Origin: Aegilops tauschii subsp. strangulata
Lineage: Eukaryota > Streptophyta > Magnoliopsida > Poales > Poaceae
Assembly (NCBI RefSeq): GCF_002575655.3
Contig: NC_053036.3
Location: 644,946,736-645,010,735 of the forward strand
Direction: 5' to 3'
Length of the DNA stretch: 64,000 nucleotides
Shown in pieces: positions 31,225 to 60,482 of the stretch. The first letter of the stretch is position 1. Every line of letters begins with the position of its first letter. The notes beneath the pieces are model-generated. The model saw only the letters and a program-made list of their open reading frames with translations. It was not told the DNA's origin and did no database searches. The position numbers were made by a program, and so were the translations under genes.

Positions 31225-31430
31225 AGTCCCACCTCGCCAACCGAAGGGCGCTCACACCAGTTTATAAGCCCGTCCCTCTCTGCCTTATTGAGCTCCTCTC
31301 AAAGTGAAAATAGATGCCCTTATACAGGGAATTTGACCTAAATTCACAGTTAATTTCTTTGAATTTCATAGAAATTTATTATGAATTTAGGTCGAATTTT
31401 CTCTATAGGCGCATCTATGTTTATTTTTTT
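31225..31430 (+). ncRNA. Candidate snRNA-type hairpin RNA gene, unit a (outer)
   Basis: USE-like AGTCCCACCTCG at 31225-31236, 24-bp gap, TTTATAA at 31261-31267. Predicted start G at 31290, 23 nt after the TATA box, opening the leader GAGCTCCTCTCAAA shared with other units. The body folds as an AT-rich stem: tagatgcccttata and gacctaaattca pair with tgaatttaggtc and tataggcgcatcta (31310-31347 with 31380-31417). Seven T at 31424-31430 would end a Pol III transcript of about 141 nt. The promoter logic is that known for plant U6-type genes; the RNA itself is inferred. Confidence 0.45.
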
Positions 31431-31658
31431 ATAGTAAATAAAAATAAATAAACCTTAATAAAATAAAATAAAATAAACTATAGTAACTAAAATAAATAAA
31501 CCTTAATAAATTAAATAAAAATAGCAGCAGTAAAATAAATAAAAATCAAATAATTAAAGTAAAATACATAAGTAATTAGAAATAAAATAAATAAGTTTTT
31601 TGTTGTAAGTAGAAACAAAACAAAACAAATAAAGCAAAAGAGAAAACAAAAAACAGAG
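31431..31658. other. AT-rich spacer between units a and b
   Basis: Repeats of aataaataaaccttaataaa and of a stretch with gttgtaagtagaaacaaaac. The same stretch recurs after several units and in the 182-bp repeats at 39626. No gene. Confidence 0.7.
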
Positions 31659-31872
31659 AAAAAAATTATGCCACCTACTGGGCCACCACGGCCTGAATAC
31701 GACTTGAAACCCATCTGTGGGCCAGGATTCAGGCCCGCAGAAGGCCCAGTAGGCCCCACAGGCAAAGAGAACGGTTAGGCCCGAAAGCCTGCAGTTGAGA
31801 GGAGCTCGAGAGGGTGGGCGCAGCAGCGCTTATAAACCACTCTCGAGCCCTCTCAACTAGCGAGGTGGGACT
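31659..31872 (-). ncRNA. Candidate snRNA-type hairpin RNA gene, unit b (outer)
   Basis: On the minus strand: AGTCCCACCTCG (31872-31861), 24 bp, TTTATAA (31836-31830), start G at 31807 with GAGCTCCTCTCAACTGCAGG, and seven T at 31665-31659, about 149 nt. The body has an outer stem CCTACTGGGCC / GGCCCAGTAGG and inside it GGCCTGAAT / ATTCAGGCC, both perfect. It is transcribed away from the array that precedes the tnp2 promoter. Confidence 0.5.
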
Positions 31873-31892
31873 AAACTTTTGACGCGGGGCAG

Positions 31893-32032
31893 CACAAGGC
31901 CTTTGGTCCTGGTTGGTGCCACCAACCGGGACTAAAGGGGGCATTGGTCCCGGTTCATGGCACCAACCGGGACCAAAGGCCTTTAGTCCCGGTTGGTGCC
32001 ATGAACCGGGACCAAATAGTTCCCTATATATA
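31893..32032 (+). promoter_or_regulatory. Subterminal-type repeat array and TATA box before tnp2 (outer)
   Basis: Four facing copies of tttggtcccggttggtgcc and its inverse lie at 31893-32018, then TATATATA at 32025-32032. The array sits between leftward unit b and the rightward mRNA promoter, so both could answer to one repeat-binding protein. Confidence 0.6.
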
Positions 32033-32407
32033 CCCCATCGCCACAGCAGAGCACTCCACAATGCTCCGTTTTTTCTGGCCGGCGAGGGGAGGGCATTTGG
32101 GTGCTCTAGCTCACCTCCTATGCACATGAGGTGTTCGATGAAATGTCTGAGCCACACTAGTTAATCTTTCTCCTCTCGAAACTCGACCTTCGAGCTCCAT
32201 TTTCCCCGAGATTTGTCTAGGTTTAGCGGTCCGTCACGTCCCGTCCCCGTCTTCACCGCCGTCAATCGCCCGCGCCGATCTCGTCGCCAGCACCACCGTG
32301 GTGAGCCTCTTGTTCTTATCTTCTTTCTGAAAGGAAAAAATTCTTACTTTAGATAGTTACTTGTCTAATTTTGTTACTTTTATTATTCCTTCTTATTACA
32401 TAGTGCG

Positions 32408-32856
32408 ATGGTTTTGGTATCCGCCCCCGTCGGCCCTCGTCCTGTCTATGATTCGGATGTGGTATATATTATCTTTTTATAACTATTTGGTTCATTTATT
32501 GTTTATGACAAATAGACCGACCAACGTGACATAGATTTTATTTATCTACGAGGTGGTTGAACCGGAAATTCTAACCGACCCTATTGTTGAGAGGTTAAAT
32601 TTAGTTGAAGAAGAAAACAATTACTTGAAGGAAAACATAAAAAAAAATTGAGGAGGAGAAGATGATATTGAAGTTGCATGTTGCGGATGTCGTCGATGAT
32701 CACAAGATCAAGATGGATGCAATGCGCTTGAAGATTAGAAAGATTAGAAAATATGTCATTCATACCGAGGCTTGGTATCATTATGCCGTTGGATCAATTG
32801 TTACCTTGGTTGCGATTATGATCGCATTTGTTTTCGCATTGAAATGTTTTACATAG
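32408..32856 (+). pseudogene. Coiled-coil, tail-anchored membrane protein, frameshifted copy (outer)
   Basis: Exon 1 is 32408-32461 (MVLVSAPVGPRPVYDSDV) and exon 2 starts at 32553 after a gt...ag intron. A run of nine A near 32638 (eight in the inner copy) shifts the frame. Downstream the protein continues with a basic helix (RLKIRKIRKY) and a single hydrophobic segment close to the C-terminus (AVGSIVTLVAIMIAFVFALK). No known family recognised. It lies between the tnp2 TATA box and the tnp2 ORF, and has its own stop. Confidence 0.7.
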
Positions 32857-33040
32857 TTTCAATGTATGGTTTAATTAATTAGATGCTCTGGAGAGCTATA
32901 TATATGTTGTTAGATGAGAACTATGTATGTACTTTGGTTTTAATGTGATGATGAACTTCTATTAATTTGGTCACTTAATTATCTATTCATGATGTTCTGT
33001 AATGGTTTTTGACACACTTAATTATATATAATGCACGCAG

Positions 33041-36000
33041 ATGAACTGGCAATGGATGTACGGTGACAAGACACACCTCCGAGTACATTAAGGGCGTGCA
33101 TGATTTTCTCGAAGTGGCTGAGGCAAACAAGCAGAATGGTTTTATGTGTTGTCCATGCCCTATATGTGGGAATACGAAGTCTTACTCTGACCGGAAAATC
33201 CTTCACACCCACCTGCTTTACAAGGGTTTCATGCCACACTATAATGTTGGACGAGGCACGGAGAAATAGGGGTTATGATGGAAGACGGCGAAGAAGAAGA
33301 GGACGATGACAACTATGTGCCCCCTGAATACGGTGATGCTGCAACGGGGGAAGCTGCTGAAGATCAAGAGGAACCAGACGATGTGCCCAATGATGCTGCA
33401 AGGGGGGAAGCTGCTGAAGATCAAGAGGAACCAGTGCCCGATGATGATGATCTCCGCCGGGTCATTGTCGATGCAAGGACGCAATGCGAAAGTCAAAAGG
33501 AGAAGCTGAAGTTCGATCGCATGTTAGAGGATCACAAAAAAGGGTTGTACCCCAATTGCGAAGATGGCAACACAAAGCTCGGTACCGTACTGGAATTGCT
33601 GCAGTGGAACTCAGAGAATGCTGTGCCTGACAAAGGAGTTGAGAAGCTATTGAAAATATTGAAGAAGAAGCTTCCAAAGGATAACGAATTGCCCGACAGT
33701 ACATACGCAGCAAAGAAGGTCGTATGCCCTCTAGGATTGGAGGTGCAGAAGATACATGCATGCCCTAATGACTGCATCCTCTACCGCGGTGCGTACAAGG
33801 ATCTGAACGCATGCTCGGTATGCGGTGCATTGCGGTATAAGTTCAGACGAGATGACCCTGCTGATGTTGACGGCCAGCCCCCCAGGAAGAGGGTTCCTGC
33901 GAAGGTGATGTGGTATGCTCCTATAATACCACGGTTGAAACGTCTGTTCAGAAACGAAGAGCATGCCAAGTTGATGCGATGGCACAGTGAGGACCGTAAG
34001 AAAGACGGGAAGTGGAGAGCACCCGCTGATGGGTCGCAGTGGAGAAAAATCGAGAGAAAGTACTGGGCTGAGTTTGCAGCTGACCCAAGGAACGTATGGT
34101 TTGGTTTAAGCGCGGATGGCATTAATCCTTTCGGGGAGCAGAGCAGCAATCACAACATCTCGCCCGTGACTCTATGTATGTATAACCTTCCTCCTTGGAT
34201 GTGCATGAAGCAGAAGTTCATTATGATGCCAGTTCTCATCCAAGGCCCTAAGCAACCCGGCAACGACATTGATGTGTACCTAAGGCCATTAGTTGAAGAA
34301 CTTTTACAGCTGTGGAATGGAAACGGTGTACGCAATAATAAATGATATTATTTATCTCCGAGTTCATAATTATGTTTATGTTCCATGCTATAACTGCTAT
34401 GGTTCTCGAGTCTGCAATAACCACGAGGCTCGGAGGAAGACTCATATGCACGTGTGGAATAATAAACGGTAAAATGTATTCCTAGTCTAGACTCTAAGAC
34501 TAGCTCAAGTGTTGCATGATGGTTATGTTTTCCTGATCATGGGCATGTCTATGTCAGCAACCTTGAGGGCATAATGTTAAGAGAACATTTGTGTTGAATC
34601 GACCCGGCATGATGTTATGCTATGAGATTCATTCGTCACAAGTTTATTGGTACATAACACAGAGATGGTTAACGTTTGCATGATTCCTTAGACCATGAGA
34701 GTATCGAGTTTCTTCATGCTTGCTTCATGAACTTTGGGGTTTGTTAAACGTCATCCGTAAATGGGTGGCTATTACGGCGGCTTACGGGTTCATGGAAAAG
34801 TGTGTCAAGTAACTTGATAGCTCAAGATTGGGATTTGCTCCTCCGACGATGGAGAGATATCTCTGGGCCCTCTCGGTGTTACGGTATCCATCATCGTCTG
34901 GCCAGACACTTTGTGATTTGATCACGGGGATGCCGGAACACGATAACGAGAAAAGAGAACAATACCAGTAACGAGGTAAGTAGCATAGTGGACAAGTTGT
35001 TGATCCACGGGAATGCCAACATGTCTCACCTCGGGTATTTGTAACATATCACGAAGCAACAGGAATAGCACATGGCAACTGGAGGTTCACTCGAATATTT
35101 ATTCGTGTGGGTATAGGGGTCAATATGGGTGTCCACGGCTCCGATGTTGATCATTGATCGGAAGGGGTTCCGGGTCATGTCTATACTTCACCGAACCTAT
35201 AGGGTCACACGCTTAAGGGTCATCTATCTGCTGAATACTAGACAGGGAGTCTGAGAGAAAATCACCGAAAAAGTTTCGGACACCGAAAAGTTTCGGACAG
35301 CGGAATCGTACCGCAGAGAGAGGTCATCGGATAAGTTTCGATGATACCGAAAAGTTGTTTCGGGATACACCATCAAGTCAAATTGGTTTCGGCACATGCC
35401 TGATAATTCTTGGAGGATGCCAGAATCATTCTGGAAGCTTTTTGGAATTTTCTGAGATAAAAACCGGAAATGTTCCGGAGCTGCCGGAGCCACTTCAGAT
35501 GCGTTTCGCAGATGAAAATCACTAAAACCGGAATTGTTTCAGAACGCGTTGAAAATCATTTTAGTGGGTACTGGAAATGTTCTTAGCCCACATAAATATT
35601 TTCAGTTCGATCAGACGCTGAAAAACGTCGTCGTGAATAGTGAAAATCAGCTTTATGGTTACTTTATGGAAAGCCACCTTTTGGGGCTTTGCTCCAAAAG
35701 ATCTTGGGGATGACATGGATGGATAGGAGCCATTTTTTGGGCCCCTCATGGGGGTGTGGCCGGCCACATGAGGTATCCCCCCTTGGGGACCCTCTTGTTC
35801 CTTGGTTTCACTCCTAGGTCCTTGTGGAAGGACTTCATTCATGTGCATTTTGGGTTTTTTGTGAAACTACCCTACCCCCTTGGGATTTCCTATAAATAGA
35901 GGTGGAGGGGCAGCCCTCCACACTCATCCCTTGCTCTCATACACATGCCATGCATTATCTGGCTTCTTCTCTCCCTCCCACGAAAAGAGTTTCGTAGAGC

Positions 36001-38555
36001 CGTAAGGCTGTCTGGGTTCCGGCAGGAACTAGTTCTGGACGGCGAAGCCCTGCCGGATAGATGACACCGTATGTGTGCAACTCTGTAGAGAGATCATAGT
36101 TTCGGTCTTAGTTCGTGAGTGCCTCCCGAAGGGCTGTCCGTGTGACCGTCCGAGTTTCGAAGGTCCTCCCGAAGGGCTGTCCGAGTGACCGTTCAAGTTT
36201 CGAAGGTCCTCCCGAAGGGCTGTCCGCGACACCGCCCGGGGGGGCTGTTCGACCGCCTCCTGGAGGGCTGTCTGAGGAGCAGATGAGGGTATACATCCTC
36301 GCGGTTGGGAGGTTGTAAATCCTAGCTGCGGGGATCTGCACCGCCGATCGTCATCGACTCTACTTCCCGCTGCGCTACGAGTCGGTAACGAAAAAGATCA
36401 AACCATGTATGCAGTCTCCATAGTGGTCCTGGGCTGGTGCGTAGGTCGGAAATTTTTTGTTTTCTGCTGCATTACCCTACAGTACGTACGTGGGATGAGC
36501 ACAAACAGGAGGAATTTAACCTGCACGCGTTGCTGTTTGTAACCATCAACGATTGGCCCGCTCTCAGTAACCTTTCAGGATAGACAAACAAGAGATACCA
36601 CACATGCACGCACTGTTTAGATCACACTGAAAGTATATACCTGGACAAATGCAGGAAGAATGTGTACCTGGGCCATCGTCGATTTCTTCCAACCAACCAT
36701 CAATGTCGAAAGAAAGGCAAGCATTTCAAAGGCGAGGCAGATCATCGGAAGAAGCCCGCCATGCGTACCGGTGATCACGTACTTGCTATGGTCAATGATT
36801 TACACGTAATCTTTGGAAAGGGTCCCGGCGGACTAGCTGTTCCGAATGACGCTGAGGGACACGCACCCATGTGGAAGAAGAAATCTATATTTTGGGACCT
36901 ACCCTACTGGAAAGAGCTAGAGGTCTGCTCTTCAATCGACGTGATGCACGTGACGAAGAACCTTTGCGTGAACCTGCTAGGCTTCTTGGGCGTGTATGGG
37001 AAGACAAAAGATAGACCTGAGGCACGGGAGGACCTGCAACGTTTGCACGAAAAAGACGGCATGCCTCCGAAGCAGTATGAAGGTCCTGCCAGCTACGCTC
37101 TTACGAAAGAAGAGAAAGAAATCTTCTTTCAATGCCTGCTCGGTATGAAGGCCCCGACTGGCTTCTCGTCGAATATAAAAGGAATAATAAATATGCCAGA
37201 GAAAAAGTTCCAGAACCTAAAGTCTCATGACTGCCACGTGATTATGACGCAACTGCTTCCGGTTGCATTGAGGGGGCTTCTACCGGAAAACGTCCGATTA
37301 GCCATTGTGAAGCTATGTGCATTCCTCAATGCAATCTCTCAGAAGGTGATCGATCCAGAAATCATACCAAGGCTAAGGAGTGATGTGGCGCAATGTCTTG
37401 TCAGTTTCGAGCTGGTGTTCCCACCATCCTTCTTCAATATCATGACGCACGTCCTAGTTCATCTAGTCGACGAGATTGTCATTCTAGGGCCCGTATTTCT
37501 ACACAATATGTTCCCCTTTGAGAGGTTCATGGGAGTCCTAAAGAAATATGTCCGTAACCGCGCTAGGCCAGAAGGAAGCATCTCCATGGGCCATCAAACA
37601 GAGGATGTCATTGGGTTTTGTGTTGACTTCATTCCTGGCCTTAAGAAGATAGGTCTCCCTAAATCGCGGTATGAGGGGAGACTGACTGGAAAAGGCACGC
37701 TTGGAGGGGACTCAATAATATGCAGGGACGGATACTCTTGGTCTCAAGCACACTACACAGTTCTACAGAACTCTACCTTTGGTGACCCCGTATGTCGATG
37801 AACACAAGAACAATCTGCGCTCCAAACACCCGGAGTAGTGTGACGACTGGATTACATGTGAACACATCAGGACTTTCAGCAGTTGGTTGGAAACATGTCT
37901 CAGAGGTGACACCACTGTTTGTGATGAGTTGTACTCGTTGTCCAGGGGACCATCTTCGACTGTATTGACTTACAAAGGATACGAAATAAATGGGAATACA
38001 TTTTACTCGATCGCCCAAGATCAAAAGAGCACCAACCAAAACAGCGGTGTCCGCTTTGATGCAGCAACCGAGAGGGGAAAGGACACATATTATGGTTACA
38101 TAATGGACATATGGGAACTTGACTACGGACATGATTTTAAGGTCCCTTTGTTTAAGTGCAAATGGGTCAATCTATCATGAGGCGGGGTACAGGTAGACCC
38201 ACAGTACGGAATGACAACAGTGGATCTGAACAATCTTGGGTACACTGACGAAACGTTCGTCCTAGCCAATGATGTGGCACAGGTTATCTATGTGAAGGAC
38301 ATGTCTACCAGACCGAGAAAAAGAAAAGATAAGGAAGCGAATACATCATACGATGAGCCAAAGCGCCACATAGTTCTTTCAGGAAAAAAGGACATTGTGG
38401 GAGTGGAGGGCAAGATAGACATGTCTGAAGATTATGAAAAGTTTCATGAAATTCCTCCCTTCAAAGTCAAGGCTGACCCAAGCATCCTGATAAACGATGA
38501 AGATTATCCATGGTTACGGCGCAATAAGCAAATGACACAAGCGAAGAAAAAGTGA
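33041..38555 (+). pseudogene. tnp2-like transposase of the outer CACTA, interrupted by a solo LTR
   Basis: ATG at 33041 follows an acceptor-like cgcag. The domain order is as in CACTA 1: Cys-rich N-terminal domain (CCPCPICGN), acidic repeat with AAEDQEEP, Tnp2 core (KVMWYAPIIPRLKRLFRN), DUF4218-like and DUF4216-like parts, ending RRNKQMTQAKKK. Lesions: 1-bp gain near 33072, 1-bp loss near 33245, the 2.1-kb LTR at 34333-36481, TAG at 36581-36583 (CAG in the inner copy), 1-bp gain near 37780, TAG at 37836-37838 and TGA at 38178-38180. Without these it would match the inner copy closely. It cannot make transposase. Confidence 0.92.
34333..36481 (+). mobile_element. Solo copia LTR (Angela/BARE-like), lacking its 5' terminal bases, TSD gtacg
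   Basis: A 2,149-bp insertion interrupts tnp2. The start (caataataaatgatattatt) resembles the part about 20 bp inside BARE/Angela-type LTRs and the end (ttctgctgcattaccctaca) resembles their 3' end. The 5-bp target duplication gtacg is exact at 34328-34332 and 36482-36486. A promoter TATA (tataaatag, 35891-35899) lies as in LTRs. Three 43-bp tandem units (starts 36122, 36165, 36208; cctcccgaagggctgtccg) lie near the end. No internal region remains. Confidence 0.8.
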
Positions 38556-38816
38556 AGACTTCCTCCCGCAACTATTATGATGATACCATGCCAACTTTGT
38601 AACAGATGAGTATGATACCATTGTCCGTTTTGTACACGAAGTGCATCTAGTTTTTGCCGTAACCCTCTCAACTTTCTTGCACATGCTATGTGGATGAAAT
38701 GATGATACCATGCCAACTTTCAACCTTTTCAGAGTTCATTTGAAATGCTTTTCAATTTTAGGGTCTTATAGCTCAAAATAATTAGTAAATGCATGAAAAA
38801 TAACAGGCCAAAACTT
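38556..38816. other. tnp2 3' flank (outer)
   Basis: Contains the repeated words gatgataccatgccaacttt (at 38579 and 38700). Possibly 3' UTR; no gene seen. Confidence 0.5.
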
Positions 38817-39028
38817 AAAAATTATGCCACCTACTCGGCCACCACGGCCTGAATACGATTAGAAACCCATCCATGGGCCAGGATTCAGGCCCGCAGAAGG
38901 CCCAGTAGGCCCACGGCATGTACAGAAAGGTTAGGCCCGTAAGCCTGCTTTAGAGAGGAGCTCGACAGCTCAGGCGCACCGCACCTTATAAACAAGTGCG
39001 GCTCTCTCTCAGCTAGCGAGGTGGGACT
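38817..39028 (-). ncRNA. Candidate snRNA-type hairpin RNA gene, unit c (outer)
   Basis: Minus strand: AGTCCCACCTCG (39028-39017), 24 bp, TTTATAA (38992-38986), start G at 38963 (GAGCTCCTCTCTAAAGCAGG), five T at 38821-38817; about 147 nt. Body as unit b with inner stem GGCCTGAAT / ATTCAGGCC intact and one mismatch in the outer stem (GGCCGAGTAGG on the 3' side). Divergent from unit d across a repeat array. Confidence 0.48.
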
Positions 39029-39049
39029 AAACTCCCACCACCACGCCAC

Positions 39050-39195
39050 TGTGCAAGGCCATTGGTCCCGGTTGGTGGCACGAACCGGGACCAATTCCAC
39101 CCTTTGGTCCCGGTTGGTGCCACGAACCGGTATTGAGGCTGTGGTCCCACGAGCACCTTTAGTACCGGTTCGTGGCACGAACAGGTACTAGAGTT
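39050..39195. repeat. Subterminal-type array between divergent units c and d (outer)
   Basis: Facing repeats ggtcccggttggtggcacg, accaattccaccctttgg and gtaccggttcgtggcacg. Variant cores (TACCGG) appear here. Confidence 0.7.
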
Positions 39196-39214
39196 TCTTA
39201 CTAAGCAGTTTTTT

Positions 39215-39420
39215 AGTCCCACCTCGCTAGCTGAGAGGCACTAGGAGCGGTTTATAAGCCCTGAGTGCAGAGACGATGAAGAAGAGGCGCAATGCTCACG
39301 TTGCTTAGCTTCAAGCCTTGAGGAATAAGGTAGACTGCATCGAGCTATGTGCAGTGCAGTCTACACTATTCCGAAAGGCTTGAAGCAAATCAACGAGCAT
39401 TGCGCCTCTTATTTATTTTT
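39215..39420 (+). ncRNA. Candidate snRNA-type hairpin RNA gene, unit d (outer): long miRNA-precursor-like stem
   Basis: AGTCCCACCTCG (39215-39226), 24 bp, TTTATAA (39251-39257). The predicted start G at 39281 is the very base of a long stem: AAGAGGCGCAATGCTC, GTTG, GCTTCAAGCCTT, GGAATA and GTAGACTGCA on the 5' side each have their exact complement in mirrored order up to 39410. Five T follow at 39416-39420. The transcript would be about 140 nt and nearly all hairpin. The syntenic unit d' in the inner element keeps the whole layout. Confidence 0.55.
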
Positions 39421-40166
39421 AATAACTTATTACAACTCCGGACTTCTTGTGTTCCGACAAAATAAAATAAACTTTAATAAAATTTATGAAACTAAAATTA
39501 ACAAAGTATTTTCTGTTCAAAACATTATAAGAAACCTCTAGTATTATTGAAACTAAAATCATATAAAATTGATGCAACTAAAATTATCGAAGTATTTTCT
39601 GTTCAAAATCATTAAAAGCAAAAAGAATTTTCATAAAGAACTTTTTTTGATAGAAACTTTAATAGCAAAAAGAATTATCATAAAGTAAAATAAATAAGTA
39701 ACTAGAAACAAAATAAAATAAAATAAATAAGTTTTTTGTTGTAAGTAGAAACAAAACAGAATAAATAAAGCTAAAAAGAAAACAAAAAAACTAAATACAG
39801 CAAAAAGAATTTTCATAAAGAACTTTTTTTGATAGAAACTTTAATAGCAAAAAGAATTATCATAAAGTAAAATAAATAAATAATTAGAAACAAAATAAAA
39901 TAAAATAAATAATTTTTTTGTTGTAAGTAGAAACAAAACAAAATAAATAAAGCAAAAAAGAAAACAAAAAAACTAAATACAGCAAAAAGAATTTTCATAA
40001 AGAACTTTTTTTGATAGAAACTTTAATAGCAAAAAGAATTATCATAAAGTAAAATAAATAAGTAATTAGAAACAAAATAAAATAAAATAAATAAGTTTTT
40101 TGTTGTAAGTAGAAACAAAACAAAATAAATAAGGCAAAAAAGAAAACAAAAAAAACTAAATACAAC
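39421..40166. repeat. 182-bp tandem repeats, three copies, AT-rich
   Basis: The word tcataaagaacttttttt stands at 39631, 39813 and 39995, giving a period of exactly 182 bp. The inner element has a single unit at 52075-52270, so the array expanded in the outer copy only. Low-complexity Phe-rich frames here are not genes. Confidence 0.85.
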
Positions 40167-40365
40167 AAAAAAAATTGTTGGGGCGCTGCCCGCTGGGCCC
40201 TCCAACCCTCGGGTTTGCAAATACAGGCCTAAAAGGGCTAGAGGGCTCTACGGGCAGCGCGCCAAAGTTAGGCCCAGAAGCCTGCTATAGAGAGGAGTTC
40301 GAGACAGTAGCCGCAGCGGGGCTTATAAACCACTCCGAGCCCCTCTCAACTAGCGAGGTGGTACT
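40167..40365 (-). ncRNA. Candidate snRNA-type hairpin RNA gene, unit e (outer), different body
   Basis: Minus strand: box AGTACCACCTCG (one mismatch, 40365-40354), 24 bp, TTTATAA (40329-40323), start G at 40300 (GAACTCCTCTCTATAGCAGG), eight T at 40174-40167; about 134 nt. The body stem is GCGCTGCCCG / CGGGCAGCGC with an inner GCCCTC / GAGGGC, unlike the body of its syntenic partner e' in the inner element. Confidence 0.45.
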
Positions 40366-40394
40366 AAACTTTTGGCCGCGACGCGGGCAGCAAG

Positions 40395-40651
40395 AGGCCT
40401 TTGGTCCCGGTTGGTGCCACCAACCGGGACTAAAGGGGTGCATTGGTACCGGTTCGTGGCACCAACCGGGACCAATGCCCCCCCTTTCGTCCCGGTTGGT
40501 GCCACCAACCGGGACCAAAGGCCGCCGCTTCCCGCCCTTTGCGCTGCTGAAAAGAGGGCTTTGGTCCTGGTTGGTGGCACCAACCGGGACTAATGCCTAC
40601 CTTTAGTCCCGGTTGGTGCCACGAACCGGGACTAAAGGCTTTGCTATATAA
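40395..40651 (+). promoter_or_regulatory. Repeat array and TATA box before tnpA (outer)
   Basis: Six or more copies of ggtcccggttggtgccacc and its inverse end at about 40638; TATATAAG follows at 40645-40652. Placed between leftward unit e and the rightward tnpA-like gene. Confidence 0.6.
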
Positions 40652-40679
40652 GCAAACGCTTAGGAAATTTTTCAGAGTT

Positions 40680-50410: not shown

Positions 50411-50429
50411 GACGACAGACCCGATAAAA

Positions 50430-51460
50430 CATAAGAAAACGAAGAAGAAATAAAAAGAGGAGAAGAAGAAAGGAATAGAGGAGAGGATTGAAGGGAAAAA
50501 AAGAAGAAAAAAAAGAGGAGAAGAAGAAAGCAATAGAGGAGAAGAAGAAAAAATAGAATATTTTCTTCTTCTCCTCTATTCCTTTCTTCTTCTCTTCTTC
50601 TTTTTCTTCTTTTTTCCTCTTCTTATTTATTTCTCCTCTTCTTCCTCTCCTTTTCTTCTTTCTTTCCTCTTCTTATTTTCTTCTTTCCTATCCTTCTTTT
50701 TCTTCTTCTTCCCTTCCTAGCTAGATATATAAAACTTTTCTAAAATTGTAACTTTTGCATATATAAAACTTTTCCATGGATCATCATTTCTCATATATAT
50801 CGAATATATATCCATTGTCATATATAAAAACTTTCTATATATGAACAAAAAACTTTCTATGAACAAAAAAACATTTTTGACATATATATTCATACATTTT
50901 GAACATCTACATACATACACAATTTTTTTTGTTCACATGTACATTATAGCCACATACACATATACATCACATATGAACAAAAAAATTAAACTAATAAAAA
51001 TAAAAAGACATATAGCCACATATGAACAAAAACATATAGCCACATACATACACATATACATTATATATATATATATGATCAAAAAACAATTAAACTAATA
51101 AAAAGCAGAGCCGGGGCGGCGGCTCTCACAGCGGGGGCGGCTAGGACGATGGCGACGGCGGGGGCGGCGAGGGCGCCGGCGCGCGGGGGCGGGACAGGGC
51201 GGGGGCGGCGAGGGCGCCGGCGAGCACGCGCGGGCCGGGCAGGGGGCTCGGGGCGCCGAGGCGGCGCGCGAGAGCAGGGGAGCACGAGGCGGGGCGGCGC
51301 GTGGGGGCAGGGCGACGGCGACGAGCACCGGGCGGCAACCCGTCGAGGCAAGGGCGCGGGGCAACGGCGACGAGGAGCGGGCGGCGACGGCGAGCACGGG
51401 CAGCCTGGCGGCGTCGCTGGCAACTGGCGAGGGATCTGGAAATTTCCCAAGTGTTGGCTT
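50430..51460 (-). repeat. tnpA leader (inner): polypurine/polypyrimidine tract and CG-rich part
   Basis: 50430-50720 holds purine (gaagaagaaaggaatagagg) then pyrimidine runs; 50720-51100 is AT-rich with ATATAC words; 51110-51440 is CG-rich (gcggcgagggcgccggc). A TATA box (TATATAA reversed) stands at 51459-51466. The layout matches the outer leader in reverse. Confidence 0.7.
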
Positions 51461-51473
51461 ATATAGGCACACC

Positions 51474-51690
51474 TTTGGTCCCGGTTGGTGGCACCAACCG
51501 GGACCAATGCCACCCTTTAGTCCCGGTTGGTGCCACCAACCGGGACCAAAGGTCCCTTTTCAGCAGCGCAAAGGGCGGGAAGCGGCGGCCTTTGGTCCCG
51601 GTTGGTGGCACCAATCGGGACTAAAGGGGGGGCATTGGTCCCGGTTGGTGCCACCAACCGGGACCAAAGGCCTTGCGCTGCCCGCGGCCA
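51474..51690. repeat. Subterminal-type array at the inner tnpA promoter
   Basis: Facing copies of tttggtcccggttggtggc and accaaccgggaccaaagg, lying between the leftward tnpA promoter and rightward unit e'. Confidence 0.8.
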
Positions 51691-51697
51691 AAAGTTT

Positions 51698-51910
51698 AGT
51701 CCCACCTCGCTAGTTGAGAGGGGCTCGGAGTGGTTTATAAGCCCCACTGCGGCTGCCCTCTCGAGCTCCTCTCAAATGCAGGCTTACGGGCCTAATGTCA
51801 CACTGTGCTGTCTGTGGGCCTATTGGGCCTTCTGCGGGCCTGAATCCTGGCCCAGGTTGGGTTTCTAGTCGTATTCAGGCCGTGGTGGCCCAATAGGTGG
51901 CAGTTTTTTT
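51698..51910 (+). ncRNA. Candidate snRNA-type hairpin RNA gene, unit e' (inner), with compensatory change
   Basis: AGTCCCACCTCG (51698-51709), 24 bp, TTTATAA (51734-51740), start G at 51763 (GAGCTCCTCTCAAATGCAGG), seven T at 51904-51910; about 148 nt. Outer stem CCTATTGGGCC (51819-51829) pairs with GGCCCAATAGG (51887-51897); other units have CCTACTGGGCC with GGCCCAGTAGG, so a C-G pair has become T-A on both sides. Inner stem GGCCTGAAT / ATTCAGGCC (51837-51845, 51873-51881). Confidence 0.52.
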
Positions 51911-52289
51911 AAAAAAAATCCAGTTTTTTGGTTCTGTTTTTTGCATTATTTATTTTCTTTTGTTTTTTGCTTTATTTTTTAATTCTTTTTGCTTTTAGGT
52001 CAGCAAAATTATAAACTGTCTGTTAGTGCCATTAGTTTTAGAAAAAATATAAACTTTCTATTAGTGCCATTAGTTCTTTATGAAAATTCTTTTTGCTGTA
52101 TTTAGTTTTTTTGTTTTCTTTTTTGCTATATTTATTTTGTTTTGTTTCTACTTACAACAAAAAACTTATTTATTTTATTTTATTTTGTTTCTAATTACTT
52201 ATTTATTTTACTTTATGATAATTCTTTTTGCTATTAAAGTTTCTATCAAAAAAAGTTTTTTATGAAAATTCTTTTTGCTTTTAATGATT
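51911..52289. other. AT-rich spacer with one unit of the 182-bp repeat (inner)
   Basis: Phe/Leu-rich frames are artefacts of T-rich sequence. The unit at 52075-52270 corresponds to the threefold repeat at 39626-40166. Confidence 0.7.
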
Positions 52290-52495
52290 AAAAATAGAAA
52301 AGAGGCGCAATGCTCGTTGATTTGCTTCAAGCCTTTCGGAATAGTGTAGACTGCACTGCACATAGCTCGATGCAGTCTACCTTATTCCTCAAGGCTTGAA
52401 GCTAAGCAACGTGAGCATTGCGCCTCTTCTTCATCGTCTCTGCACTCAGGGCTTATAAACCGCTCCTAGTGCCTCTCAGCTAGCGAGGTGGGACT
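52290..52495 (-). ncRNA. Candidate snRNA-type hairpin RNA gene, unit d' (inner)
   Basis: Minus strand: AGTCCCACCTCG (52495-52484), 24 bp, TTTATAA (52459-52453), start G at 52429 at the foot of the same long stem as unit d (AAGAGGCGCAATGCTC, GCTTCAAGCCTT, GTAGACTGCA and complements), five T at 52294-52290; about 140 nt. Stem and loop are almost unchanged from unit d. Confidence 0.55.
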
Positions 52496-52499
52496 AAAA

Positions 52500-52672
52500 A
52501 ACTGCTTAGTAAGAAACTCTAGTACCGGTTCGTGCCACGAACAGGTACTAAAGGTGCTCGTGGGGCCACAGCCTCATTAGTACCGGTTCGTGGCACCAAC
52601 AGGGACCAAAGGGTGGAATTGGTCCCGGTTCGTGCCACCAACCGGGACCAATGGCCTTGCACAGCGGCGTGG
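52500..52672. repeat. Array between divergent units d' and c' (inner)
   Basis: gtaccggttcgtgccacg, ggtcccggttcgtgccacc and their inverses. Syntenic with 39050-39195. Confidence 0.7.
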
Positions 52673-52682
52673 TGGTGAGTTT

Positions 52683-52895
52683 AGTCCCACCTCGCTAGCT
52701 AAGAGAGAGCCGCACCTGTTTATAAGGTGCGGTGCGCCTGAGCTGTCGAGCTCCTCTCTAAAGCAGGCTTACGGGCCTAACCTCTCTGTACATGCCTGTG
52801 GGCCTACTGGGCCTTCTGCGGGCCTGAATCCTGGCCCATGGATGGGTTTCTAATCGTATTCAGGCCGTGGTGGCCCAGTAGGTGGCATAATTTTT
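52683..52895 (+). ncRNA. Candidate snRNA-type hairpin RNA gene, unit c' (inner)
   Basis: AGTCCCACCTCG (52683-52694), 24 bp, TTTATAA (52719-52725), start G at 52748, five T at 52891-52895; about 148 nt. Outer stem CCTACTGGGCC (52803-52813) with GGCCCAGTAGG (52872-52882) is perfect here, whereas unit c has one mismatch. Confidence 0.5.
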
Positions 52896-53156
52896 AATTT
52901 TTGGCCTGTTATTTTTCATGCATTTACTAATTATTTTGAGCTATAAGACCCTAAAATTGAAAAGCATTTCAAATGAACTCTGAAAATGTTGAAAGTTGGC
53001 ATGGTATCATCATTTCATCCACATAGCATGTGCAAGAAAGTTGAGAGGGTTACGGCAAAAACTAGATGCACTTCTTGTACAAAACGGACAATGGTATCAT
53101 ACTCGTCTATTACAAAGTTGGCATGGTATCATCATAATAGTTGCGGGAGAAAGTCT

Positions 53157-56100
53157 TCACTTTTTCTTCGCTTGTGTCATTTGCTTATTGCGCCGTAACC
53201 ATGGATAATCTTCATCGTTTATCAGGATGCTTGGGTCAGCCTTGACTTTGAAGGGAGGAATTTCATGAAACTTTTCATAATCTTCAGACATGTCTGTCTT
53301 GCCCTCCACTCCCACAATGTCCCTTTTTCCTGAAAGAACTATGTGGCGCTTTGGCTCATCGTATGATGTATTCGCTTCCTTATCTTTTCTTTTCCTCGGT
53401 CTGGTAGAGATGTCCTTCACATAGATAACCTGTGCCACATCATTGGCTAGGACGAACGGTTCGTCAGTGTACCCAAGATTGTTCAGATCCACTGTTGTCA
53501 TTCCGTACTGTGGGTCTACCTGTACCCCGCCTCCTGACAGATTGACCCATTTGCACTTAAACAAAGGGACCTTAAAATCATGTCCGTAGTCAAGTTCCCA
53601 TATGTCCATTATGTAACCATAATATGTGTCCTTTCCCCTCTCGGTTGCTGCATCAAAGCGGAAACCGCTGTTTTGGTTGGTGCTCTTTTGATCTTGGGCG
53701 ATCGTGTAAAATGTATTCCCATTTATCTCGTATCCTTTGTAAGTCAATACAGTCGAAGATGGTCCCCTGGACAACGAGTACAACTCATCACAAACAGTGG
53801 TGTCACCTCTGAGACGTGTTTTCAACCAACTGCTGAAAGTCCTGATGTGTTCACATGTAATCCAGTCGTCACACTGCTCCGGGTGTTTGGAGCGCAGACT
53901 GTTCTTGTGTTCATCGACATACGGGGTCACCAAGGTAGAGTTCTGTAGAACTGTGTAGTGTGCTTGAGACCAAGAATATCCGTCCCTGCATATTATTGAG
54001 TCCCCCCTCCAAGCGTGCCTTTTCCAGTCAGTCTCCCCTCATACCGCGATTTAGGGAGACCTATCTTCTTAAGGCCAGGAATGAAGTAAACACAAAACCC
54101 AATGACATCCTCTGTTTGATGGCCCATGGAGATGCTTCCTTCTGGCCTAGCGCGGTTACGGACATATTTCTTTAGGACTCCCATGAACCTCTCAAAGGGG
54201 AACATATTGTGTAGAAATACAGGCCCCAGAATGACAATCTCGTCGACTAGATGAACTAGGACGTGCGTCATGATATTGGAGAAGGATGGTGGGAACACCA
54301 GCTCGAAACTGACAAGACATTGCGCCACATCACTCCTTAGCCTTGGTATGATTTCTGGATCGATCACCTTCTGAGAGATTGCATTGAGGAATGCACATAG
54401 CTTCACAATGGCTAATCGGACGTTTTCCGGTAGAAGCCCCCTCAATGCAACCGGAAGCAGTTGCGTCATAATCACGTGGCAGTCATGAGACTTTAGGTTC
54501 TGGAACTTTTTCTCTGGCATATTTATTATTCCCTTTATATTCGACGAGAAGCCAGTCGGGACCTTCATACCGAGCAGGCATTCAAAGAAGATTTCTTTCT
54601 CTTCTTTCGTAAGAGCGTAGCTGGCAGGACCTTCATACTGCTTCAGAGGCATGCCGTCTTTTTCGTGCAAACGTTGCAGGTCCTCCCGTGCCTCAGGTCT
54701 ATCTTTTGTCTTCCCATACACGCCCAAGAAGCCTAGCTGGTTCACGCAAAGGTTCTTCGTCGTGTGCATCACGTCGATTGAAGAGCGGACCTCTAGCTCT
54801 TTCCAGTAGGGTAGGTCCCAAAATATAGATTTCTTCTTCCACATGGGTGCGTGTCCCTCAGCGTCATTCGGAACAACTAGTCCGCCGGGACCCTTTCCAA
54901 AGATTACGTGTAAATCATTGACCATAGCAAGTACGTGATCACCGGTACGCATGGCGGGCTTCTTCCGGTGATCTGCCTTGCCTTTGAAATGCTTGCCTTT
55001 CTTTCGACATTGATGGTTGGTCGGAAGAAATCGACGATGGCCTAGGTACACATTCTTCCTGCTTTTGTCCAGGTATATACTTTCAGTGTCATCTAAATAG
55101 TGCGTGCATGCGTGGTATCCCTTGTTTGTCTGTTCTGAAAGGTTACTGATAGCGGGCCAATTGTTGATGGTTACAAACAGCAACGCGTGCAGGTTAAATT
55201 CCTCCTGTTTGTGCTCATCCCACGTACGTACACCGTTTCCATTCCACAGCTGTAAAAGTTCTTCAACTAATGGCCTTAGGTACACATCAATGTCGTTGCC
55301 GGGTTTCTTAGGGCCTTGGATGAGAACTGGCATCATAATGAACTTCTGCTTCATGCACATCCAAGGAGGAAGGTTATACATACATAGAGTCACGGGCCAG
55401 GTGTTGTGATTGCTGCTCTGCTCCCCGAAAGGATTAATGCCATCTGTGCTTAAACCAAACCATACGTTCCTTGGGTCAGCTGCAAACTCAGCCCAGTACT
55501 TTCTCTCGATTGTTCTCCACTGCGACCCGTCAGCGGGTGCTCTCAACTTCCCGTCTTTCTTACGGTCCTCACTGTGCCATCGCATCAACTTGGCATGCTC
55601 TTCGTTTCTGAACAGATGTTTCAACCGTGGTATTATAGGAGCATACCACATCACCTTCGCAGGAACCCTCTTCCTGGGGGGCTCGCCGTCAACATCACCA
55701 GGGTCATCTCGTCTGATCTTATACCGCAATGCACCGCATACCGGGCATGCGTTCAGATCCTTGTACGCACCGCAGTAGAGGATGCAGTCATTAGGGCATG
55801 CATGTATCTTCTGCACCTCCAATCCTAGAGGGCATACGACCTTCTTTGCTGCGTATGTACTGTCGGGCAATTCGTTATCCTTTGGAAGCTTCTTCTTCAA
55901 TATTTTCAATAGCTTCTCAAATCCTTTGTCAGGCACAGCATTCTCTGCCTTCTACTGCAGCAATTCCAGTACGGTACCGAGCTTTGTGTTGCCATCTTCG
56001 CAATTGGGGTACAACCCTTTTTTGTGATCCTCTAACATGCGATCGAACTTCAGCTTCTCCTTTTGACTTTCGCATTGCGTCCTTGCATCGACTATGACCC

Positions 56101-56519
56101 GGCGGAGATCATCATCATCGGGCACTGGTTCCTCTTGATCTTCAGCAGCTTCCCCCCTTGCAGCATCATTGGGCACATCGTCTGGTTCCTCTTGATCTTC
56201 AGCAGCTTCCCCCATTGCAGCATCACCGTATTCAGGGGGCACATAGTTGTCATCGTCCTCTTCTTCTTCGCCGTCTTCCATCATAACCCCTTATTTCTCC
56301 GTGCCTCGTCCAAACATTATAGTGTGGCATGAAACCCTTGTAAAGTAGGTGGGTGTGAAGGATTTTCCGGTCAGAGTAAGACTTCGTATTCCCACATATA
56401 GGGCATGGACAACACATAAAACCATTCTGCTTGTTTGCCTCAGCCACTTCGAGAAAATCATGCAAGCCCTTAATGTACTTGGAGGTGTGTCTATCACCGT
56501 ACATCCATTGCCGGTTCAT
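53157..56519 (-). pseudogene. tnp2-like transposase of the inner CACTA, three lesions
   Basis: ATG at 56519 (MNRQWMYGDRHTSKYIKGLH) after an acceptor-like cgcag. Cys-rich N-terminal domain (CCPCPICGN), acidic repeats, Tnp2 core (VMWYAPIIPRLKHLFRNE, FGLSTDGINPFGEQSS, IDVMHTTKNLCVNQLGFLG), DUF4218-like (LRGLLPENVRLAIVKL) and DUF4216-like (GYIMDIWELDYGHD) parts, ending RRNKQMTQAKKK. Lesions: one extra base near 56290, TAG at 55954-55952 (TGG in the outer copy) and two extra G in the run at 54002-54007. The lesions differ from those of the outer copy, so both decayed separately or were moved by another source of transposase. Confidence 0.92.
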
Positions 56520-56703
56520 CTGCGTGCATTATATATAATTAAGTGTGTCAAAAACCATTACAGAACATCATGAATAGATAATTAAGTGACCAAATTAATA
56601 GAAGTTCATCATCACATTAGAACCAAAGTACATACATAGTTCTCATCTAACAACATATATATAGCTCTCCAGAGCATCTAATTAATTAAACCATACATTG
56701 AAA

Positions 56704-57151
56704 CTATGTAAAACATTTCAATGCGAAAACAAATGCGATCATAATCGCAACCAAGGTAACAATTGATCCAACGGCATAATGATACCAAGCCTCGGTATGA
56801 ATGGCATATTTTCTAATCTTTCTAATCTTCAAGCGCATTGCATCCATCTTGATCTTGTGATCATCGACGACATCCGCAACATGCAACTCCAATATCATCT
56901 TCTCCTCCTCAATTTTTTTTATTTTTTCCTTCAAGTAATTGTTTTCTTCTTCAACTAAATTTAACCTCTCGACAATAGGGTCGGTTAGAATTTCCGGTTC
57001 AACCACCTCCTAGATAAATAAAATCTATGTCACGTTGGTCGGTATATTTGTCATAAACAATAAATGAACCAAATAGTTATAAAAAGATAATATATACCAC
57101 ATCCGAATCATAGACAGGACGAGGGCCGACGGGGGCGGATACCAAAACCAT
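56704..57151 (-). CDS. Small coiled-coil, tail-anchored membrane protein inside the CACTA (inner, intact)
   Basis: Exon 1 57151-57098 (MVLVSAPVGPRPVYDSDV), gt...ag intron, exon 2 57006-56704, about 119 residues. Residues 20-75 are a heptad-rich acidic/basic helix (VERLNLVEEENNYLKEKIKK) followed by KMDAMRLKIRKIRK; a single hydrophobic segment (AVGSIVTLVAIMIAFVFALK) ends three residues before the stop, as in tail-anchored proteins. No family is recognised and no role in transposition is known. It lies upstream of tnp2 on the same strand behind the same promoter. The outer copy is frameshifted; CACTA 1 lacks it. It could be a captured host gene. Confidence 0.72.
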
Positions 57152-57519
57152 CGCACTATGTAATAAGAAGGAATAATAAAAGTAAGAAAATTAGACAAGT
57201 AACTATCTAAAGTAAGAATTTTTTCCTTTCAGAAAGAAGATAAGAACAAGAGGCTCACCACGGTGGTGCTGGCGACGAGATCGGCGCGGGCGATCGACGG
57301 CGGTGAAGACGGGGACGGGACGTGACGGACCGCTAAACCTAGACAAATCTCGGGGAAAATGGAGCTCGGAGGTCGAGTTTCGAGAGGACAAAGATTAACT
57401 AGTGTGGCTCAGACATTTCATCGAACACCTCATGTGCATAGGAGGTGAGCTAGAGCACCCAAATGCCCTCTCCTCGCCGGCCAGAAAAAACAGAGCACTC
57501 TGGAGTGCTCTGCTGTGGC

Positions 57520-57660
57520 GATGGGGTATATGTAGGGAACTCATTGGTCCCGGTTGGTGGCACCAACCGGGACTAAAGGCCTTTGGTCCCGGTTGGTGCC
57601 ATGAACCGGGACCAATGCCCCCTTTAGTCCCAGTTGGTGGCACCAACCGGGACCAAAGGC
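57520..57660 (-). promoter_or_regulatory. Array and degenerate TATA region before tnp2 (inner)
   Basis: Facing copies of ggtcccggttggtggcacc at 57543-57658; the TATA position reads ACATATACC on the minus strand, weaker than TATATATA in the outer copy. Confidence 0.5.
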
Positions 57661-57696
57661 CTTGTGCTGGAACTGGCGCGGTGCGGTGGGATGTTG

Positions 57697-57911
57697 AGTC
57701 CCACCTCGCTAGCCGAGAGGCTTCGACAGTGGTTTATAAGCGCAGCTGCGCTGACCACTTCGAGCCCCTCTCAAATGCAGGCTTACGGGCCTATTCTGTC
57801 ACTATTTGCCTGCGGGCCTAATGGGCCTTCTGCGGGCCTGAATCCTGGCCCATGGATGGGTTTCTAGTCGTATTCAGGCCGTGGTGGCCCAGTAGGTGGC
57901 ATAATTTTTTT
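57697..57911 (+). ncRNA. Candidate snRNA-type hairpin RNA gene, unit b' (inner)
   Basis: AGTCCCACCTCG (57697-57708), 24 bp, TTTATAA (57733-57739), start G at 57762 (GAGCCCCTCTCAAATGCAGG), seven T at 57905-57911; about 150 nt. Inner stem intact; the outer stem CCTAATGGGCC / GGCCCAGTAGG has one A-G mismatch. Confidence 0.48.
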
Positions 57912-60291
57912 CCTCTGTTTTTTTCTCTTTTGCTTTATTTGTTTTGTTTTGTTTCTACTTACAACAAAAAACTTACTTATTTTATTTCTAATTACTTATG
58001 TATTTTACTTTAATTATTTTATTTTTATTTATTTTACTGCTGCTATTTTTATTTATTTTACTGCTGCTATTTTTACTTAATTTATTAAGGTTTATTTATT
58101 GTAGTTACTATAGTTTATTTTATTTTATTTTATTAAGGTTTACGAGCTGTGGGAGGGACGAGGGGTGGCGACGTGCTGTGGGACACGATGCAGGGGCCGA
58201 GGAGGGAATTTAGGGTTAAGTTTTTATACGGGAACGGTTAGACGGGCTTTAGCAGGCTTTCAACGGGCTTGTGGGGTTTTACCAGGTCATCGATGAGAGT
58301 TTCCAAAAATGTCATTAGAAATCCGTCATGGATTAACAGGTTTCTTGTAGTGATATGTCGAGCACAATGAGTGGTGATCCTCCGGCCTCCCACTCGCACG
58401 CAGCCGCCGCCACCCTCCCGCTCGCTCGCCGCCGCCGTCGTCACCAGTCCCGGCCATGGCGTCGCCGCTGCCGTCATGCCCCTGAAGACCTATTCATCTT
58501 GCCTGAAGGTGATCCTGTGTCAGATCCTCCACTTAACCCGCGTGGACCGGCTCGTGGGTCACTGACAGTGGGTCCCTTGGGCCCACTGGTCAGGTTTGAC
58601 CAGTCGCCCCCGCCTCCTTCCTCCTCTGGCCGAACAGAGGCGGGGCTCCGGCGATCAACGCCGGTGAACGGCGGCTCCTCTCGGGGTCCTGAGGGCGGGG
58701 ATGGATCCGCCAGGCCGGGGCGGTCCTCCCGGTGGTCGAGGAGGTGGCGGGGATGGAGGGAGTCGCCGGCGGCGAGCTCCGCGGCGGACGGCAGCTTCGA
58801 GAGGTTTGGGGCTTTGGCCTACGGTGGTTCCCCGACGCAGCTGAGGGTTTGGGCGGCTCCGCACGGTCGAGGGGAGGAGGATGGTGGTGCTATACGGACG
58901 GGGGGGCTCTGGTTGCGACTGAAAGGACCGGAGGGCGGCGGCGGCTGTACTGGCCGGAGATGGGGAAGAAGACCCTCCCTGGTCGACTGCCTGCTACGGG
59001 GGTGCAAGGTGGGGTGGCTTGAGGTCGCCTGAAGGACTGGACGGACTCGGGGGCTCCTTATATAGGCGGCCGGAGTCGGTTCCAACGGCGGCCGTGGATA
59101 AGAACGGCGAACCGCCGTTCTCTAGCCTGAAGGACGTCGTGGCGGCGACGGGCACTAGTGGACGAGCTCGCGGATAAGCTTGGACTGCTCCAGAGGCAAG
59201 CTGGCGAGCGGCTGTGGCTCGGGCGGCGCCATCCATGGCAGGGGCCTACTGTGGCCGGCCGTCGTGCCCCTGAAGACCTATTCATCTTGCCTGAAGGTGA
59301 TCCTGTGTCAGATCCTGCACGATACCTCATCACTACAACACGTCGGCGGCAGTGTATGAGGCGTCCATGGCCCTGGTGGCGCCTTCAAGGGAGGATGCAT
59401 GATCTTCAAGGGAGGACAGGCCATCAGATTCATCCACTTGGTAGCGTCTTTGTTCATCCAGGTTTGACGATTCATCTTTTTATTATCTAGTCTCTCAGGG
59501 ATGTCAAACGTACCCTCAACAACTAACGTCAGCATTTATTTTGTTCCGTAGTGAACCCCCTCGATGAATGCATGTCTGTTGCCGTGGCTAGAGAAAATTC
59601 TACATATCCACATCCTCATAACCAACAAGATAAGTAGCAGCTTTGATGGAGGTATTTTCCTTCACTGCGTGCTTTTTCTTTGTGCCCCTTACTGTACTGT
59701 AGTAGCATTTGCTAAATTGCATTGAGAGAATAGGACGGCACAACAAGCTAGGGCTTCAAGAAAACCAACCAAATTCCTTTTTTTTGGGTCAACCAACCAA
59801 ATTGCTGTAATAGCACGATCCGCAAGACCTAGAAGGGATCTACACATGACATCGGTGGCTTCTCCTCCGCCTGCTATTTGCCGCTTTGACACTGTTGACA
59901 GATCCGAGTTCCACCTGCTAGGCTCGAATGATAGATGTTACGGGCAACTGTATGTGAATCCCACTCCAAGGGATCGCTCTTCTCTATCCCAGATATGGCG
60001 GTTATGGAGTTGATGGCTCGTGTTTTTTTTCTCTTTTGCTTTATTTTTTGTTTTGTTTCTACTTACAATAAAAAAACATATTTATTTTATTTCTAATTAC
60101 TTATGTATTTTACTTTAATTATTTTATTTTTATTTATTTTACTGCTGCTATTTTATTTATTTTACTGCTGCTATTTTTACTTAATTTATTAAGGTTTATT
60201 TATTGTAGTTACTATAGTTTATTTTATTTTATTTTATTAAGGTTTATTTAGTTTTATTTATTTTATTAAGGTTTATTTATTTTATAAATAT
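57912..60291. other. AT-rich spacer split by a 1.9-kb foreign segment, flanked by a 230-bp direct repeat
   Basis: 57913-58141 and about 60026-60243 are near-identical AT-rich copies. Between them lie a 3' end of another CACTA family (58150-58352, ending TTTCTTGTAGTG), GC-rich sequence to about 59320 with a 50-bp direct repeat (gaagacctattcatcttgcc at 58484 and 59271), a CACTACAACACGTC motif at 59331 and unassigned sequence to 60018. The frame at 58355-59032 is low-complexity and not convincing. The outer element has none of this. Confidence 0.65.
58150..58352 (+). mobile_element. Right-end fragment of a Caspar-type CACTA
   Basis: The end TTTCTTGTAGTG is the inverse of CACTACAAGAAA, the terminus of Caspar-type Triticeae CACTA elements, preceded by gtcattagaaatccgtcatg. 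The left part of that element is absent. Confidence 0.6.
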
Positions 60292-60482
60292 AAAAAAATG
60301 AACATAGATGCGCTTATAGAGAAAATTAAACCTAAATTCACAGTAAATTTCAATTTACTGTGAATTTAGGTGAAATTCCCTGTATAAGGGCATCTATTTT
60401 CACTTTAAGAGAAGCTCAACAAGGCATAGAGGGACGGGCTTATAAACTGGTGTGAGCACCCTTCGGTTGGCGAGGTGGGACT
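60292..60482 (-). ncRNA. Candidate snRNA-type hairpin RNA gene, unit a' (inner)
   Basis: Minus strand: AGTCCCACCTCG (60482-60471), 24 bp, TTTATAA (60446-60440), start G at 60417 (GAGCTTCTCTTAAAGTG), seven T at 60298-60292; about 126 nt. The stem is better than in unit a: gatgcccttatacagggaat and acctaaattcacagtaaatt pair with their inverses around a loop of a few bases at about 60350 (arms 60303-60347 and 60353-60396). Confidence 0.5.

Follow-up and report, generated by a model that had tools for sequence, protein, structure and literature searches.

Some viral microRNAs (miRNAs), among them those of bovine leukemia virus, simian foamy virus and murine gammaherpesvirus 68 (MHV68), are transcribed by RNA polymerase III (Pol III), from compact units that yield pre-miRNA hairpins. 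In plants, short interspersed nuclear elements (SINEs) and the Cassandra terminal-repeat retrotransposons in miniature (TRIMs) use Pol III through internal tRNA- or 5S-type promoters, by which the element itself is transcribed. A CACTA DNA transposon of rice carries MIR820, whose 22- and 24-nt small RNAs have as their target the host silencing gene OsDRM2, which is repressed (PMC3459959; here and below, published work is cited from excerpts of the papers). In a window of 64,000 nt from Aegilops tauschii subsp. strangulata (the whole stretch analysed; NC_053036.3, positions 644,946,736 to 645,010,735 of the forward strand), we found two nested CACTA elements, named outer and inner, each with five compact units (a to e) that combine a promoter of the U6 small nuclear RNA (snRNA) type, a hairpin and a T-run. 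The sequence suggests that a plant transposon makes miRNAs by way of Pol III.

The original prediction had placed ten snRNA-type units on this transposon family, and all ten were found at the places given, five on each strand. They have an upstream sequence element (USE) AGTCCCACCTCG, then exactly 24 bp and the TATA box TTTATAA; the unit whose T-run ends at 40167 has the USE variant AGTACCACCTCG, with the one mismatch that had been announced. By arithmetic, about 5e-7 exact 19-base matches with one fixed spacing are expected by chance on both strands of 64 kb. The start G foreseen 23-24 nt after the TATA box is present, at base 23 in eight of the ten units and at base 24 in both d units, which have A at 23. 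T-runs of 5-8 finish about 125-149 nt downstream of the predicted start, where 126-150 nt had been expected. The bodies are self-complementary as predicted, in different degrees: when compared with 200 dinucleotide shuffles per window unit, folding is extreme for a and d, strong for outer e and modest for the GC-rich units b, c and inner e.

On the outer element, unit a (31225..31430, plus strand) has its USE at 31225-31236, TATA box at 31261-31267, predicted start at about 31290 and T7 at 31424-31430, and its body is an AT-rich hairpin of about 55 bp (z -11.0). Unit b (31659..31872, minus strand) has the USE at 31872-31861, TATA at 31836-31830, start at about 31807 and T7 at 31665-31659 (z -3.3), and unit c (38817..39028, minus) the USE at 39028-39017, TATA at 38992-38986, start at about 38963 and T5 at 38821-38817 (z -2.1). 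Unit d, the putative MIR9654 precursor (39215..39420, plus), has the USE at 39215-39226, TATA at 39251-39257, start at about 39280-39281 and T5 at 39416-39420 (z -16.3). Unit e (40167..40365, minus) has its variant USE at 40365-40354, TATA at 40329-40323, start at about 40300 and T8 at 40174-40167 (z -5.4). On the inner element, unit e (51698..51910, plus) has the USE at 51698-51709, TATA at 51734-51740, start at about 51763 and T7 at 51904-51910 (z -2.65); its hairpin is b/c-like and unrelated in sequence to that of outer e. Inner d, again a putative MIR9654 precursor (52290..52495, minus), has the USE at 52495-52484, TATA at 52459-52453 and T5 at 52294-52290 (z -15.5). Inner c (52683..52895, plus) has the USE at 52683-52694, TATA at 52719-52725, start at about 52748 and T5 at 52891-52895 (z -2.9), and inner b (57697..57911, plus) the USE at 57697-57708, TATA at 57733-57739, start at about 57762 and T7 at 57905-57911 (z -1.65). 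Inner a (60292..60482, minus), a near-perfect hairpin, has the USE at 60482-60471, TATA at 60446-60440, start at about 60417 and T7 at 60298-60292 (z -13.1). For minus-strand units the coordinate of the original prediction is the end of the T-run, and the USE starts at 31872, 39028, 40365, 52495 and 60482. Along either element the units follow one another from a to e, with a and d in forward and b, c and e in reverse orientation, so that the window holds five positional pairs rather than ten independent units. This five-unit order is kept elsewhere, for example at C1:3680725(+), 3681413(-), 3690389(-), 3690623(+) and 3691353(-). In several a, b, c and e units, a spacer motif GAGAGG.GCTC and the leader GAGCTCCTCTC are inverted complements flanking the TATA box.

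Both d units (39215 and 52495) hold the exact mature and star strands of the wheat 22-nt miR9654, in opposite arms and, by inspection of the fold, with 2-nt 3' overhangs. The star strand lies at 39306-39327 and the mature strand at 39369-39390 in outer d, and at 52404-52383 and 52341-52320, respectively, in inner d. The published sequences come from wheat, not from Aegilops tauschii. In a wheat small-RNA paper, UUCCGAAAGGCUUGAAGCAAAU with the star UAGCUUCAAGCCUUGAGGAAUA is tae_44, which has five variants (PMC3997425); the same sequence is tae-miR9654c in PMC4591353, and the exact 22-nt sequence appears also as Ta-miR036-3p (PMC4015866) and in PMC7076468. The forms miR9654a/b, one or two nt off, are found in PMC4029127 and PMC5550412, the former of which counts miR9654a as seed-specific, and a PHD-finger is tabulated as a predicted miR9654 target (PMC5003897). 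The miRNA has been reported from grain and spike. No link of miR9654 to a transposon or to Pol III was found in the excerpted open-licence main texts, nor was any description of CACTA elements or other transposons with Pol III or snRNA promoters in such main texts. The prediction that nothing like these units had been described stands for the transposon and its promoter in the literature searched; the RNA of the d unit, however, belongs to a catalogued miRNA family. Word searches of open-licence main texts gave no published small RNA from the arms of a, b, c or e.

A subfamily with the spacer CCAAGCGAGAGGCACTCGCAGCGG has a much longer, nearly perfect d hairpin with arms of about 78 bp; it was found in L027, L078, L081 and 20 loci chosen by their hairpin. 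The long-d arm pattern occurs at 244 places in the genome, and the 20 that were fetched, together with those in L027, L066, L078 and L081, are transposon units. Two frames translated from the long hairpin (L027 type) and compared with PDB for a possible host origin gave nothing. From their sequences, short d and long d resemble successive steps on the inverted-duplication route to a miRNA gene, the direction of which we infer.

The spacing of the promoter in other family members had been named beforehand as a check, and it came out in favour of the prediction: in the 4.1-Gb genome, the gap is exactly 24 in at least 9,939 exact-motif modules and another length from 0 to 55 in at most 132. The exact motif has at least 10,071 matches with a gap of 22-26 (0 for a reversed-pattern control), 48 with a gap of 25-55 and 84 with a gap of 0-23, all genome counts being lower bounds. 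Since most copies are young repeats, the gap counts alone are no proof of selection. We then investigated a sample of 122 units, taken from the window and from 68 loci of one chromosome (C1). These loci were picked by means of the exact promoter motif, which makes the conservation of USE, TATA box and gap in the sample partly a matter of construction; the window units are free of this bias. Among the 122 units there are 62 distinct spacers, with a mean identity of 60% and a minimum of 25%, and every one is 24 long, which agrees with the claim of a fixed gap despite differing spacers. The predicted start, position 23 after the TATA box, is a purine in 122/122, and a run of five or more T (T5+) is found at +95 to +160 in 110/120 (two units were dropped from the folding sample as too short). 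No T5+ occurs in the first 90 nt of 111 units, 11 having been dropped for want of a suitable T-run or length.

A sample unbiased for the promoter was obtained from 20 loci that match 32 bases of a hairpin arm, a query containing no promoter letters. The module is present in 20/20, with the TATA box unchanged in 20/20 and the USE perfect in 15/20; L105 has a 1-base deletion within the USE. Substitutions in these loci amount to 0/140 (0%) in the TATA box, 4/240 (1.7%) in the USE, 2.9% in the spacer, 18/440 (4.1%) between TATA and start, and 29/400 (7.3%) in the 20 nt upstream of the USE. Searches of viral and prokaryote sequence collections gave no USE-24-TATA module. About 100 of the 10,071 modules lie in C1:0-7.7 Mb, the first 0.2% of the genome, which is about five times the mean density; distal enrichment has been described for Caspar-clade CACTA elements of barley. 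Repeats at L069-L074 have a USE, 34 bp (a Pol II-like spacing) and TTTATAA, plus an A/T-rich box at 24 bp; judged by eye, they contain no hairpin.

The assignment of the promoter to the Pol III-like snRNA type is borne out by the U6 genes of the same genome. The spacing of USE and TATA box sets Pol III apart from Pol II snRNA genes, and monocots need in addition a monocot-specific promoter element (MSP; PMC9845283, PMC11961915). There are 48 U6 matches, and in 15 of the 16 whose upstream region was examined a USE-like box is followed by exactly 24 bp, a TATA box and, 23-24 nt on, the first G of U6; in the exception, L121, the gap is shortened. The USE-like box is most often GTCCCACATCG and is GTCCCACCTCG in L110, the variant CCTCG occurs also in the U6 loci L110, L116 and L117, and the TATA box is TTTATAA, but CTTATAA in L116. 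As in the transposon units, TTTA precedes the USE, and spacers such as GCTAGCGAAAGAGAGAACGACCAG are similar. The MSP (RGCCCR within 120 nt upstream of the USE) is found at 15/16 U6 genes, 15/16 a units and 2/2 long terminal repeats (LTRs) of a Copia element, three units without 120 nt upstream having been dropped. The transposon units differ from the U6 genes in that their RNA is a hairpin without an Rfam match and that the MSP is mostly absent from them. The window gave no Rfam match at gathering scores and no tRNA in a tRNA scan, and permissive Rfam searches of 38700-40400 and the d unit returned only below-cut-off matches to unrelated miRNA families. A U6 gene array with a spacing of about 1.2 kb lies at C5:563.7-563.9 Mb.

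Because the energy z-scores of b, c and inner e are modest, counts of covariation are the better evidence for these hairpins. After 9/71 rows without a recognisable hairpin core had been dropped, 11 b/c/e-type units were chosen whose spacers differ at no fewer than 5 of 24 sites. Both partners changed in 8/42 pairs of this set, as in GAAT/ATTC to GCAT/ATGC, and in the e family (8 sequences) this is the case for 6/39 pairs. Copies within one unit type are highly similar, and hairpins over 90% identical were removed before a 28-sequence alignment was made. In this alignment 94.3% of cells are paired, compared with 91.6% in shuffles (0/500), 18 cells changed on both sides, compared with 5.6 (0/500), and the covariation score is 0.151, compared with 0.109 (0/500); slid controls gave at most 0.053, the structure having been derived from that same alignment.

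The identity of the outer and inner CACTA elements rests on their termini, target site duplications (TSDs) and transposase domains. The left part of the outer element extends over 30988..45225 (plus strand) and its right part over 60763-61122, with termini and TSD read from the sequence (GTA at 30985-30987 and 61123-61125) and a decayed terminus TATTAGTG at the 3' end. The inner element (45226..60759, minus strand) is nested in it in opposite orientation and has the TSD TTA at 45223-45225 and 60760-60762; the two are 97-98% identical across most of their long inverted arms. By domain search, the open reading frames (ORFs) 33245-34345 and 36584-37801 of the outer element contain Transposase_21 and DUF4218, and the ORFs 53993-55951 and 53157-54038 of the inner element contain Transposase_21, DUF4218 and DUF4216, the E values for Transposase_21 (tnp2) in the window being 1.7e-44 and 1.1e-83. 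Weak Transposase_24 matches, below the curated cut-off, lie in the ORFs 42382-43203 (outer) and 47124-49346 (inner). Subterminal repeats at 39072-39181 match the MIR5387 model with 40 and 36 bits, short of the cut-off of 69 bits, and on this account the MIR5387 family may be derived from such CACTA repeats.

The count of ten is correct for the CACTA units, but the window contains twelve USE-24-TATA modules. The two others lie at 17519-17561 and 23091-23133, one in each LTR of the Copia element (LTRs about 91% alike); in both, a USE-like box (1 mismatch in one, 2 in the other) stands 24 bp upstream of TTTATAA. With RGCCCR upstream in both, the module is a predicted full monocot U6-like promoter inside a retrotransposon LTR; no significant hairpin was found at either module. 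A second CACTA family was found at L125 (C1:9871500-9879500), with Transposase_21, DUF4218 and subterminal repeats ATGCCGACGG that differ from those of the first family; one terminus was found and the other was not. Its unit at 4352 has USE-24-TTTAAAT and a strong hairpin from the expected start to TTTTT. This second family was seen at that one locus.

We consider it likely that each full CACTA element of this family carries five U6-type hairpin units, from which Pol III makes short hairpin RNAs that may act in trans, d being the miR9654 precursor. Transcription of a unit would start about 23 nt past the TATA box, run through the hairpin and end in the T-run, and the anatomy of the promoter makes Pol III the most likely polymerase. 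A DICER-LIKE enzyme would then cut the d hairpin to the 22-nt miR9654 duplex, of which the mature sequence is published. Apart from the other units, the hairpin arms have only short chance matches in the rest of the window, so that cis targets in the element are unlikely; as neither element contains any other match to the arms, the hairpin RNAs probably act in trans, perhaps on genes of the host or on its silencing machinery, and they would spread along with the transposon. The prediction of small-RNA genes carried by the transposon itself fits all that was testable, including the exact miR9654 in the d hairpin. A bolder version, which we rate at somewhat below an even chance, sees in a Triticeae CACTA lineage a mobile set of miRNA genes, five per element and all driven by Pol III, which would be the first MIR genes of plants not to depend on Pol II. 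Their hairpins, miR9654 included, would act in trans against the host and have been exchanged between units, and other CACTA families would have gained such genes independently.

Several observations weigh against Pol III-made hairpin RNAs. Outside type a, only 3/101 CACTA units have the MSP upstream, and the enrichment expected in the sampled units was not found (17% overall vs 18% in shuffles); units without it may have weak promoters, or an element outside the consensus. A T4 run lies in the 3' arm region of 17/19 a units, and in 7/72 b/c/e-type units the hairpin is gone and 200 nt contain no terminator. Of the five covariation measures, two fall within the shuffles (two-sided pairs 54/500, pair types 91/500), and types a and d, too uniform to tell, have a single two-sided pair apiece. 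In PMC4591353 the star strand of miR9654c is marked undetected, and the expressed sequence tag (EST) CA737852 is listed, for which reason some Pol II transcript may exist. This EST, the lack of the MSP in 98/101 units other than type a and LTRs, and the fact that Pol II MIR genes are the described norm in plants (PMC4029127) would suit conventional MIR genes, with hairpins cut from long Pol II transcripts and the USE-TATA module a non-functional relic. Such genes seem unlikely to us, as they do not account for the unchanged TATA box (0/140) and nearly unchanged USE (4/240) of the 20 promoter-unbiased loci, compared with 18/440 and 29/400 in neighbouring stretches, or for a hairpin that fills the space from predicted start to T-run in five unrelated hairpin types, including that of the second family.

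Another explanation, compatible with the preferred one, is that Pol III hairpins serve as decoys like virus-associated (VA) RNAs, occupying DICER-LIKE or other silencing proteins, with miR9654 a by-product. Equivalent units hold different hairpin sequences in the same layout, as outer e and inner e do, so that structure may matter more than sequence; yet in the b/c/e type variation falls on spacer and leader and spares the loop and stem sequence, a pattern that speaks for sequence-specific roles, and miR9654 is a discrete 22-nt species in excerpts of six papers (PMC3997425, PMC4029127, PMC4591353, PMC4015866, PMC5550412 and PMC7076468). Pure decoys are for these reasons improbable. The units could also be passengers, silent heterochromatic repeats that are alike only through recent amplification from few masters. 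The close likeness of copies of one unit type is what such relics would show, as are c units without a hairpin: those at L015, L016, L017, L019, L020, L021 and L049 have an intact promoter, no hairpin and no T5+ within 200 nt. We regard relics as quite unlikely, given that diverged types show compensatory changes, that the promoter is conserved between units with 60% identical spacers (in the sample chosen by motif) and that small RNAs identical to the d sequence have been published. Finally, GAGAGG.GCTC and GAGCTCCTCTC, the inverted complements around the TATA box of several units, might indicate that the USE-TATA module and the inverted repeats are protein-binding or cruciform sites, for example for element targeting or replication, rather than RNA genes. 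This would leave the T-run, the start purine in 122/122, the compensatory changes of RNA pairs and the miRNA unexplained, and we give it hardly any credence.

Should the units prove to be Pol III genes, Pol II would not be the sole source of plant miRNAs, and a sequenced wheat miRNA family would come from thousands of transposon-borne U6-type units. Transposon counter-defence by small RNA would then become directly testable. Annotators have reason to go back to species-specific miRNAs of grasses and look for U6-type promoters on transposons, and searches for U6 promoters in Triticeae will encounter about ten thousand transposon copies.

The units can be set beside the systems named at the outset. 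Viral Pol III miRNAs belong to animal hosts and use other promoter types, and they have no sequence relation to the Aegilops units. SINEs and Cassandra differ from the CACTA units, which have gene-external U6-type promoters and specify separate hairpin RNAs, presumably made by Pol III, inside a DNA transposon. The tae-miR9654 papers give the same sequence and list the star found in the d units, but their excerpts mention neither a transposon nor a Pol III-type promoter. By analogy, miR820 is the closest known function: there too, as far as the excerpts of the rice paper go, a CACTA element carries a miRNA precursor hairpin that spreads with it. MIR820 differs in having five rice copies and one hairpin per element, and no U6-type promoter is mentioned in the same excerpts. 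The Aegilops CACTA carries five units per element and accounts for thousands of modules, whose sequence is unrelated to MIR820, and the rice precedent of five copies and one hairpin would, if our reading is true, be widened to a five-gene array on an abundant element.

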